Source: a virus. From it: DNA of 34,506 nucleotides. Position numbers and translations under genes: made by a program. The notes beneath the pieces are model-generated. The model made no database searches. It saw only the letters and a program-made list of their open reading frames with translations, and was not told the origin of the DNA. The DNA lies in the IMG/VR virus record IMGVR_UViG_3300048833_000108, positions 1 through 34,506 of that record. One strand, given 5' to 3'. Below, piece after piece: positions 2 to 4,476 of the stretch (the stretch's first letter is position 1; every line of letters starts with the position of its first letter).

Positions 2-247
2 CGCGTGGCCAGCCGAGCATGGCGCGACCGTGCACACCAACGGCGGTGGGTGGAACAGCTGGTGTGGGCAGTGGATGAGCTGAAGCAATACATGCAGACA
101 GCCAAGCTGCTGCATGCCTTCACCAGCTTCCGGCAGTTCGAAGAGTTGGCGCGGCAGGCCCACGGTCTATGCGCGCCGTCGGCACTGGAAGAAGTTGCAA
201 AGCAAATACGAACACTCGCTGCGGCGGATGGGGGTATCAGTGAATGA
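2..247 (+). CDS. hypothetical phage protein, 5' partial
   Basis: The frame is open from the first bases of the window to a TGA at 245-247, giving 81 visible residues. The first in-frame start-type codon is a GTG at 5, but the frame continues upstream, so the true start probably lies outside the window. The visible product is charged and Trp/Gln/Arg-rich near the front (RRWVEQLVWAVDEL), then helical, with no cysteines arranged for metal binding and no motif I recognise. Its stop overlaps the ATG at 244 as ATGA, the same coupling used by the following genes, which argues that it is a real member of the accessory operon. Function unknown. Confidence 0.55.
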   Translation, partial: RVASRAWRDRAHQRRWVEQLVWAVDELKQYMQTAKLLHAFTSFRQFEELARQAHGLCAPSALEEVAKQIRTLAAADGGISE

Positions 248-1049
248 GCTGGCTCTTTTCGCGGGCGCTGGTGGAGGAATACTCGGCGGGCAAGCGCTGG
301 GGTGGACTACGGTCTGTGCCGTGGAATGGGAGCCTTACGCCGCAAGCGTACTCATCGCACGACAGAACGATCGACTCCTTCCTCAATTTCCCGTCTGGGA
401 CGACATTAGGAGTTTTGACGGAAAAAGGTGGAGAGGACTTGTTGATGTCGTTTCTGGCGGCTTCCCTTGCCAGGACATCAGCATCGCCGGAAAGGGAGAG
501 GGAATTACAGGAGGACGGAGTGGCCTTTGGTCAGAAATGGCAAGGGTCATTGGCGAAGTACGACCAAGATTTGTATTCGTGGAAAACAGCTCAATGCTCG
601 TTACTCGGGGAATCGGAACGGTCGTCGGCGATCTTTCCTCGATGGGGTACGACAGTCGGTGGGGAGTTATATCCGCTGCCGATGCGGGGGCGCAGCATTT
701 CCGTGAGCGCGTCTGGATCGTGGCCTACTCCAACGGTATGCGGGAATTACAACCGGAAGGGAGTGAGCAAGACGAGTGGCGACGGGCTGGCAACGGCAGT
801 GGCGAAACGCCCTTGGCCGACTCCATCAGCAGGGAACAGCAAGTGGAACGGAACACTTCAGGAGTGGGGCGTGTCATGGAACTGGGTGAGAGCCGAAGAC
901 CCAGCCTTAGCTCGTTCGCCTTTGAACCCGACGTGGGTCGAGTGGCTCATGGGGTGGCCGCTCGGATGGACAGACTTAGATGCCTCGGCAACGGACAAGT
1001 ACCGCAATGTGCAGCCCTTGCCTGGCGAATCCTCACCGACCGAAATTAA
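240..1049 (+). CDS. C5-cytosine DNA methyltransferase (orphan, phage type)
   Basis: Transfers a methyl group from S-adenosylmethionine to C5 of cytosine in a target DNA sequence. Motif I (LALFAGAGGG) is at the extreme N-terminus, motif IV (GGFPCQDIS) carries the catalytic Cys at about residue 77, motif VI is the variant FVENS at about 113-117, motif VIII is HFRERVWIVA, and the C-terminal motif X region reads LGNGQVP...ALAWRIL. The length of about 269 residues is short, leaving only a small target-recognition region. I prefer GTG 240, which has GGGGG at 230-234 five bases upstream; ATG 228 is an in-frame alternative. No restriction endonuclease is visible nearby, so protection of phage DNA from host restriction is the likely role (inference). 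The ORF at 244-1062 overlaps it in the +1 frame for nearly its whole length. Confidence 0.9.
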   Translation: MNELALFAGAGGGILGGQALGWTTVCAVEWEPYAASVLIARQNDRLLPQFPVWDDIRSFDGKRWRGLVDVVSGGFPCQDISIAGKGEGITGGRSGLWSEMARVIGEVRPRFVFVENSSMLVTRGIGTVVGDLSSMGYDSRWGVISAADAGAQHFRERVWIVAYSNGMRELQPEGSEQDEWRRAGNGSGETPLADSISREQQVERNTSGVGRVMELGESRRPSLSSFAFEPDVGRVAHGVAARMDRLRCLGNGQVPQCAALAWRILTDRN

Positions 1050-1062
1050 GGAATCAGCATGA
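244..1062 (+). CDS. overlapping-frame WPTP-motif protein (double-coded with methyltransferase)
   Basis: An intact 272-codon ORF in the +1 frame relative to the methyltransferase, covering almost all of it. It begins MSWLFSRALVEEYSAG, has two WPTP motifs (WPTPTVCGN, WPTPSAGNS) and ends near NPTWVEWLMGWPLGWTDL. From memory, proteins with this start, these WPTP repeats and this ending are common in phage genomes, usually named hypothetical or methyltransferase; that is recollection, not a search. Its ATG forms ATGA with the upstream stop (244-247), and its own stop forms ATGA with the next start (1059-1062). It therefore fits the operon junctions better than the methyltransferase does. The SD-like GGGGG at 230-234 is nine bases upstream. 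Function unknown. The main alternative is a non-translated frame kept open because it shadows conserved methyltransferase motifs. Confidence 0.5.
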   Translation: MSWLFSRALVEEYSAGKRWGGLRSVPWNGSLTPQAYSSHDRTIDSFLNFPSGTTLGVLTEKGGEDLLMSFLAASLARTSASPERERELQEDGVAFGQKWQGSLAKYDQDLYSWKTAQCSLLGESERSSAIFPRWGTTVGGELYPLPMRGRSISVSASGSWPTPTVCGNYNRKGVSKTSGDGLATAVAKRPWPTPSAGNSKWNGTLQEWGVSWNWVRAEDPALARSPLNPTWVEWLMGWPLGWTDLDASATDKYRNVQPLPGESSPTEIKESA

Positions 1063-1841
1063 CCACCACCCAAAACCCCGCGCAGGATGTGAGCGATGCG
1101 GCTATCGGAGCAGCCTTCCGCCTGACTGACTCAATCAACCGGGACGCTGATAAGTTCGTTGATGATGTGCTTACTCGCGCCAAGGGTATAGACGCCAACA
1201 ATACGAAGACCACGAAGCGACCGTCTGTTGAGTCGCTCTGGCAAGCGTTTTGGGCAACTCCGCACGATGAGCGCAAGTGGAATCGGCCAACTGGAACGAA
1301 TGGCAAGCCCATGCCGATGACGCTTGTCAGCTTCAAGTACGAAGTAGTGCGGGCCGCGTTTGAGTTGGACGCCGCCCGCGAACTACAGCAAGCGCAGGAT
1401 GAGGCCGGCACCTTCAATTTCCCTATTTGCGGGAGAGGTACACCGCACCAGCACACAAGCGAAGAAGTTGCGCGTCATCGTGGCGCCATAGATCGCGGTG
1501 ATCCAATTAGCCTTGAAGCCTACGGACAGGCGTTCAGCGATGCTGTGAGGGGCGAGATTGATTTCCGGTTCTCCGGGCAAATGATCGGCGCCATAAGAGC
1601 GCGGGCCGTTGAGATTCAATGCAGGATCAACCGAAGCCAGCCCGCCCGCGAACTACAGCATCATCCGTCGCACACCACACCCCAATCATCCGCGCCCGCG
1701 GTGGGTGGAATGTCAGCAAGCGTTAGGGCCGCACTGTACGACGTGAAGTCATTGTGCGGATTCGCCTACGAGCAGGGTTATCACGAAATGGGATATGACC
1801 CGGTAGCGGTCGTCGAATCCGCGCTTACGGGGAGGTGGTGA
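1059..1841 (+). CDS. hypothetical phage protein (260 aa)
   Basis: A 260-residue soluble protein with an AAGGA ribosome site about seven bases upstream and an ATGA junction with the preceding ORF. I see no recognisable domain. The N-terminal half is helical and acidic, a central part is His/Gln-rich, and the C-terminal part (SASVRAALYDVKSLCGFAYEQGYHEMGYDPVAVV described loosely as helical) could form a small helical unit. A 19-bp exact direct repeat (1372-1390 and 1642-1660) encodes ARELQ in frame twice, hinting at internal duplication or assembly from phage modules. The ARELQ word also occurs in mosaic Ea22-type phage proteins, so a fast-evolving accessory protein is plausible (inference). Function unknown. 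Confidence 0.7.
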   Translation: MTTTQNPAQDVSDAAIGAAFRLTDSINRDADKFVDDVLTRAKGIDANNTKTTKRPSVESLWQAFWATPHDERKWNRPTGTNGKPMPMTLVSFKYEVVRAAFELDAARELQQAQDEAGTFNFPICGRGTPHQHTSEEVARHRGAIDRGDPISLEAYGQAFSDAVRGEIDFRFSGQMIGAIRARAVEIQCRINRSQPARELQHHPSHTTPQSSAPAVGGMSASVRAALYDVKSLCGFAYEQGYHEMGYDPVAVVESALTGRW

Positions 1842-3486: not shown

Positions 3487-4476
3487 ATGGCGGTGATCGA
3501 ACGAAGGGGGAAGAAGTGGCGGGCGCTCGTGCGCCTCAAGGGCCATCCTACCGCGTCCAGGAGCTTCAACGGGCGCAAGGCGGCAGAGGACTGGGGCAAG
3601 GCCACGGAGGACGCGCTGCGGGCTGGGCTTGGCCTTCCCGGCGAATCCCCTACCCTGTCCGCGCTGATCGACAAGTACACGAAGGAAATGGCGCGGTTCA
3701 AGCCGCTGTCAGCCACCAAGCGCGGCAACCTGAAACGCTGGGAGGAATCCTTGGGCGGTCGCGAGGTCGGCAGCTTGACCGGGCAGGATGTGCTGGATCA
3801 TGTCGCGGGTCGGGGCGTGTCACCGGCGACGATGGCAATGGAGGTGGGGTTTCTTGCAGAGGTGCTGGCAGCGGGCCGGTCGTTGTGGGGCATGACCATT
3901 CCGGACGTGGTGACAGCTGCGCGTCCGACGTTGCATCGGACGGGGGCGGTAGGCAAGCCGCAGGAACGCGACCGACGGCCTACGCCGGAGGAACTGGAAT
4001 TGTTGGCGGGGTTCTACCGCTACAACTTCGGCAAGGTGCCGATGCGAGAGCTGATCCCGTTTGCCGTGGATACAGCCATGCGCCTGAGCGAAATCACGGC
4101 GCTGCGCTGGGAGGATTACCGCCCCGGCGAGAAACCGACGATCCAGATACGCGACCGCAAAGACCCGAAAAACAAGTCAGGCAACAACCAATGGGTGCCG
4201 CTGCTGGGCGAGTCTGCCGCCATCATTGAGCGCCAGCCGCGCAAGGGGTCGCTGATCTTCCCGTGCAAGGGCGACAGCGTGAGTGCGTCATTCCGCCGTG
4301 CGTGCGTGCGGCTGGAAATTGCAGACCTGCACTTCCACGACCTGCGCCACCACGGCATCAGCCTGCTATTTGAAGCGGGCTATTCCATCCCGGAGGTCGC
4401 TATAGTCAGCGGCCACCGGGATTGGAAGTCACTCAGGCGCTACACGAACCTGAAAGCCGCGAACCTGCATCGGTGA
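3487..4476 (+). CDS. int: tyrosine recombinase / phage integrase
   Basis: Site-specific recombinase that inserts and, with an excisionase, excises the phage. It has 329 residues. The N-terminal arm-binding part (MAVIERRGKKWRALVRLKG) is followed by a SAM-like core-binding domain (about 55-150) and the catalytic domain. Active-site residues visible are Arg199 (TAMRLSEI), His284 and Arg287 (HDLRHHG), His310 (SGHRDW) and the nucleophile Tyr319 (RRYTNL). Lys in the beta-hairpin is probably in DRKDPKNKSG. The start at ATG 3487 has a purine-rich GGGGAAGG about 12 bases upstream. The gene converges on the late operon with only 21 bp between stop codons, leaving little room for an attP downstream. The 229-bp leader with repeats is the other candidate for att or arm sites. 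Confidence 0.95.
   Translation: MAVIERRGKKWRALVRLKGHPTASRSFNGRKAAEDWGKATEDALRAGLGLPGESPTLSALIDKYTKEMARFKPLSATKRGNLKRWEESLGGREVGSLTGQDVLDHVAGRGVSPATMAMEVGFLAEVLAAGRSLWGMTIPDVVTAARPTLHRTGAVGKPQERDRRPTPEELELLAGFYRYNFGKVPMRELIPFAVDTAMRLSEITALRWEDYRPGEKPTIQIRDRKDPKNKSGNNQWVPLLGESAAIIERQPRKGSLIFPCKGDSVSASFRRACVRLEIADLHFHDLRHHGISLLFEAGYSIPEVAIVSGHRDWKSLRRYTNLKAANLHR

Follow-up and report, generated by a model that had tools for sequence, protein, structure and literature searches.

Two overlapping reading frames of a temperate phage as a putative two-polypeptide cytosine-C5 DNA methyltransferase

The locus and its two reading frames

The window, that is, the whole stretch of DNA that was analysed, is a 34.5-kb IMG/VR virus record and represents a temperate tailed phage. 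Two frames, A and B, share about 800 bp and are both open on the plus strand (240-1062), so that the two intact ORFs described in an earlier note on this DNA are indeed there (Table 1). The pair is located about 2.4 kb upstream of the integrase gene, which is followed by tail, tape-measure, capsid-protease and portal genes on the opposite strand. An ORF that enters from the left end (2-247), for which no family match was obtained, overlaps the ATG of B with its stop codon (245-247), and the stop of B overlaps the ATG of the next gene at 1059. The ATGA overlaps that had been taken to tie B to both neighbours are therefore present here, but the downstream coupling is not general, as 45 of 204 relatives overlap their next gene in this way. 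Within this next gene gcccgcgaactacagca is present twice, around 1376-1393 and 1647-1664.

The two start codons are arranged in tandem, and an in-frame TGA (241-243) directly precedes the ATG of B. The single GGGGG is separated from GTG240 by 5 nt and from ATG244 by 9 nt and, as proposed earlier, fits both starts. Among the 204 relatives, matches resembling a Shine-Dalgarno (SD) sequence peak 7-9 nt before the ATG of B, the start codon of A stands 4 nt before this ATG in 176 (ATG 94, GTG 58, TTG 24), and an in-frame stop directly precedes it in 184. Since the spacing of the SD and the tandem starts is conserved, one ribosome-binding site can serve both starts.

Table 1. Features of the overlapping frames and their surroundings in the window.
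Feature	Position	Strand	Support
Shine-Dalgarno-like GGGGG, for both starts	230..234	+	sequence; SD-like matches in relatives
Tandem start GTG-A-ATG-A, A at 240 and B at 244	240..247	+	sequence; 204 relatives
Frame A (alpha), cytosine-C5 DNA methyltransferase, 269 aa	GTG 240..1049	+	PF00145, phrog_363
Frame B (beta), +1-frame protein, 272 aa, putative recognition region and motif IX	ATG 244..1062	+	phrog_1008, openness, selection
Motif I, frame A, LALFAGAGGGILG	249..287	+	
Motif IV with catalytic PCQ, frame A, SGGFPCQDIS	453..482	+	
Conserved B core upstream of the WPTP repeats, KYDQDLYSWKTAQCSL ... IFPRWGTTVGGELY	556..672	+	selection, best-modelled strands
Motif VI, frame A, FVFVENS	570..590	+	
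Motif VIII, frame A, GAQHFRERVWIVA	687..725	+	
Putative recognition region, B constrained, A nearly free	720..920	+	omega_B 0.07, omega_A 1.30
WPTP repeats, frame B	721-738 and 814-831	+	
Putative motif IX, frame B, LNPTWVEWLMGWPLGWTDL	922..978	+	profile-profile match; B primary, 0.05 vs 0.28
Motif X, frame A, LRCLGNGQVPQCAALAWRIL	975..1034	+	A primary again, 0.08 vs 0.45
Next gene, ATG overlapping the stop of B (ATGA)	1059..1841	+	no family match
Integrase	3487..4476	+	phrog_1 E 1e-44

Frame A matched PF00145 (E 8e-34) over residues 4-178 only, as well as phrog_363 (E 9e-67), and its profile match to M.HhaI ended at M.HhaI residue 181; the Pfam and M.HhaI matches both stop right after motif VIII. 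Membership in PF00145 is supported by motifs I-VIII with the catalytic PCQ and ENV/ENS, but A departs from the usual single-chain form, the recognition domain and motif IX being absent from the same chain. Downstream of motif VIII a poorly conserved stretch is followed by motif X (LGNGQVPQ). Motif IX was not found in frame A, in which motifs I, IV, VI, VIII and X were located, and the statement of the earlier note that the methyltransferase frame carries every expected motif was wrong; judged by its sequence motifs, the METHYLTRANSFERASE frame (frame A) is incomplete.

Frame B matched no Pfam or NCBIfam model but did match phrog_1008 (E 7e-26, residues 67-201), which is catalogued as a phage 'DNA methyltransferase' family. 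B-type proteins (phrog_1008, BFVD A0A6J5S323) bear the name of methyltransferases, yet B has no catalytic motif. The WPTPT at 721-735, immediately downstream of motif VIII, corresponds to VAYSN read in the +1 frame, in agreement with the shifted reading pointed out previously. Motif IX has the general form R-x-L-T-x-R-E-x-A-R-x-x-G-F-P-D. The B block is read as motif IX on the basis of a profile-profile match of B residues 224-244 to the motif IX block of single-chain phage methyltransferases (prob 95, E 2e-8), a match that rests on 21 columns. In the single-chain actinophage methyltransferases the matched block stands just before their motif X, and their N-terminal parts align with A up to motif VIII (E 3e-39). 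A segment of frame A, GRVAHGVAARMDRL, was also considered as motif IX and was rejected as the main reading, given that constraint in this segment is weaker on A (0.28) than on B (0.05). The conserved core of B upstream of the repeats, where B-changing, A-silent substitutions occur at 0.19 of neutral (A101-140), may be part of the recognition domain or of an interface.

Structure prediction did not yield a usable fold for B: AlphaFold2 reached a pLDDT of 55.5 with 71 sequences and of 60.3 with 144 sequences (pTM 0.26). A Foldseek search with the B model retrieved no fold match in the PDB and, in BFVD, phage proteins only, with meaningless superposition (TM 0.2 or less). The B profile gave only chance hits against PDB sequences, and gp35 of Streptomyces phage RemusLoopin, a beta chain from a tandem-split relative, had no match in the PDB. 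Low-confidence models would fit an obligate subunit that needs its partner, which is weak evidence and no proof.

Openness of the +1 frame and selection along the gene

The openness of the +1 frame was compared with a null in which the protein and codon usage of A were kept fixed in 100,000 synonymous shuffles and the +1 stops were counted. On average, 7.5 stops fell in the +1 frame of the shuffled window, and no shuffle was free of them (P<1e-5). Counting stops in this frame across methyltransferase homologues had been put forward as a check in the earlier note; in the 204 distinct related loci, a set made up of the closest relatives, none carried an interior stop, against 4.6 expected. Amino-acid identity to the window in nearly all of these relatives is about 47-67% for A and 31-56% for B. 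The register is identical as well, with B at +1 of A in 80/80 viral loci fetched with B, in 80/80 viral loci fetched with A, all of which carry B, and in 80/80 bacterial loci, all with both frames. Of 61 loci in a more distant set, fetched only via the A frame of another phage, 36 had a motif-IX-like block in the +1 frame, 3 had one in the A frame and none had one in +2; the block escaped the simple pattern used in 12, and no A was found in 10.

Selection on each frame was examined by sorting the substitutions between 52 independent pairs of relatives (78-98.5% DNA identity) into those that change A, B, both or neither, with rates expressed relative to doubly silent changes. This neutral class is small (about 126 substitutions, and 98 in an earlier cut of 43 pairs) and absolute values are consequently rough, but the contrast between regions is large in spite of it. 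A-changing, B-silent substitutions occur at 0.04-0.11 of neutral over motifs I-VIII, 0.48-0.54 over the recognition region, 0.28 over motif IX of B and 0.08 over motif X of A, while B-changing, A-silent substitutions occur at 0.19-0.67, at 0.06 and 0.01, at 0.05 and at 0.45 over the same regions, respectively. The difference is widest in A191-227 (0.01 for B-changing vs 0.54 for A-changing), and in the earlier cut A161-222 gave an omega_A of 1.30 and an omega_B of 0.07. Because the rates alternate between frames at the borders between motifs, A is the primary frame for motifs I-VIII and X, whereas in the recognition region and motif IX the primary frame is B. Weaker selection on B is also seen where it overlaps the catalytic motifs I-VIII, and this holds from its first codons (0.40 of neutral in A1-20).

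Synonymous constraint, another check suggested for this locus, was thus found at A-synonymous sites where they change B, and overprinting with both frames under selection is supported by the openness and substitution tests, translation of both frames being inferred. The +2 frame was tried as a conservation control and dropped in favour of the substitution-class test because it is not clean: bases fixed by B also fix +2. A control of codon positions in flanking ORFs was noisy.

The same pieces in relatives and in known split enzymes

The pieces distributed over frames A and B were found in a single chain in other phages. Mycobacterium phage Madiba gp71 carries motifs I-VIII, LPTP repeats, EWMMGWPAGWVT and GNGVCP, with residues 1-469 matching phrog_363 (A-type) and 319-478 matching phrog_1008 (B-type), and some 20 viral relatives of it have motifs I-VIII, LPTP repeats, ...FPEWMMGWPAGWVT... 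and GNGVCP likewise in one chain. The motif IX of these single-chain actinophage enzymes (Madiba gp71, L254-L279) reads E-W-(L/M)-M-G-W-P-x-G-W and their motif X GNG. They are like the window in the order of the pieces (I-VIII, LPTP, IX, X) and differ from it in having one frame and one protein of about 360-580 aa. In Kampy gp78/gp77 and in RemusLoopin gp34/gp35 the enzyme is divided after motif VIII between tandem genes, the second of which carries motifs IX and X. In Llama, gp74 and gp75 hold the A-type pieces and the motif IX block is in another frame. Of these arrangements that of the window is the most extreme, with B spanning the full length of A.

Some contigs combine the frames differently: in L305 motif IX is in frame with motifs I-VIII and motif X is in another frame, and L339 and L340 have other frame combinations, with B fused to the N-terminus of A in L339. 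These odd joins could be real frame changes or sequencing indels. A longer version of the A/B overlap is present in four Pseudomonadota genomes (L361, L362, L363, L371), where the B frames contain four PTP repeats and measure 408-475 aa and the methyltransferase frame opposite them about 394-426 aa.

In M.HhaI and M.HaeIII every specific base contact comes from the small domain, which comprises the recognition region plus motif IX, and catalysis is carried out by the large domain (PMC3404938). Artificial splits of C5 methyltransferases after motif VIII are functional, and M.AquI and M.EcoHK31I are naturally split (PMC3404938). M.AquI (CYCGRG) is divided after motif VIII into two chains, the small subunit having both IX and X, whereas M.EcoHK31I (YGGCCR) has motifs I-VIII and X together with the predicted recognition domain on the large subunit and motif IX alone on the second polypeptide (PMC3404938). 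The window differs from M.AquI in that motif X stays in frame A; the AquI-like relatives are the tandem pairs of Kampy and RemusLoopin. With M.EcoHK31I it shares a large subunit with I-VIII and X but without IX, and a motif IX placed on a second polypeptide, here B (profile match E 2e-8). It departs from that enzyme in that the recognition region is under selection in B (omega_B 0.07) and not in A (1.30), and in that B extends over all of A, with the two starts offset by 4 nt. The small-subunit gene of M.EcoHK31I reportedly lies inside the large one in another frame, as Lee, Kam and Shaw are said to have described in 1995, and the beta subunit of EcoHK31I is shorter than the B of the window. 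M.EcoHK31I may be regarded as the closest known system by its motif split, an analogy made without sequence alignment and with activity inferred. The hidden HNH endonuclease of ShiLan is likewise a second protein in another frame of a phage methylase gene, but it is a mobile homing insertion and not part of the enzyme (PMC11855218).

A bipartite reading, its alternatives and its distribution

It is very probable that 240-1062 encodes a two-polypeptide cytosine-C5 DNA methyltransferase from two overlapping frames. Frame A would give rise to alpha, the catalytic large domain that binds AdoMet and cytosine and has motifs I-VIII plus X, and frame B to beta, with the DNA-recognition region (WPTP repeats) and motif IX, which would fulfil the small-domain function. 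With one ribosome-binding site and two starts 4 nt apart, both chains could be made from one message in similar amounts and may join to form a single enzyme for the methylation of phage or host DNA. The reading is built on observed ORFs, on their conservation, the selection on each frame, the split of the motifs and the one-chain and tandem-gene relatives; that both chains are translated, assembled and active and that the beta region contacts target bases is inferred. The earlier suggestion that B is a partner or regulator of the methyltransferase holds for the partner, not for an extra regulator; B apparently is the portion of the enzyme that A lacks, with the recognition region and motif IX.

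B might instead be a separate protein (a regulator, an anti-restriction protein or another) overprinted on a complete methyltransferase of which it is no subunit. This remains unlikely: the conserved N-terminal half of B overlaps motifs I-VIII and is not seen in single-chain enzymes, and there is no confident fold for B, both of which would suit such a protein, but A lacks motif IX and is unconstrained in its recognition region, and the motif IX block present in B belongs to the enzyme itself in single-chain and tandem relatives. That functional pieces alternate between frames in linear order, and that a few contigs (L305, L339) join them in other combinations, would also be compatible with programmed frameshifting, in which translation would leave A for B downstream of motif VIII and return to A ahead of motif X, yielding one long polypeptide. 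This would take two shifts, one in each direction, however, and B has its own start, with an in-frame stop immediately preceding the ATG in 184/204 loci and an SD 7-9 nt away, and is selected from its first codons (0.40 of neutral in A1-20), which makes this explanation very improbable.

Scarcely any credence is left for the possibility that A alone is translated and that the +1 frame is open merely as a consequence of base composition and the amino-acid sequence of A. High GC does make stops rarer and A partly fixes the +1 reading; nevertheless, synonymous shuffles never left the +1 frame of the window open, sites that are synonymous in A but alter B are conserved, and of the two frames it is A that varies freely in the recognition region. 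In our view this explanation is already refuted by the openness of B and the selection on it.

Natural selection maintains the A/B layout across phages and prophages numbering in the hundreds. In most of the records inspected a single frame is annotated, namely A for Acinetobacter phage ABMM1 and Salmonella phage S9-5 and B for Pseudomonas phage phPA-G, with B-only records stating 'hypothetical protein'. No report of a widespread A/B overlap was found in literature searches, and the near-complete overlap, the tandem start, the recognition region in beta and the breadth are new here. The bipartite reading can, with some confidence, be extended to a large class of C5 methyltransferases from phages and prophages, unannotated for the most part, that are bipartite by overprinting, in which many phrog_363-type 'single-chain' entries would be the catalytic subunit only, the specificity subunit being hidden in the +1 frame behind a shared ribosome-binding site, and the selected frame would switch twice, each frame predominating where the other is filler. 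Provided that both chains are produced, gene callers that do not allow long overlaps on the same strand report half an enzyme, and predictions of phage methylation, catalogues of enzymes and heterologous tests of such genes would lack the subunit that probably determines specificity. The locus offers an unusually clean old same-strand overlap of about 800 bp, and since a role can be assigned to each product, simple silent mutations allow overprinting to be tested.

In bacteria, a B match (E 1e-10) was obtained in 16 of 398 Pseudomonadota species genomes (about 4%); among the ones whose loci were read out, most have a methyltransferase in the paired frame, with open stretches of the B frame of up to 475 aa and up to four PTP repeats. 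The pair occurs in 4 of 5,426 complete E. coli genomes. In a prophage of E. coli PCP07014 (L348:3001-3762) the locus is annotated as a pseudogene, 'DNA cytosine methyltransferase, internal stop'; A and B are interrupted by a stop at one and the same position, and thus one lesion seems to disable both chains.
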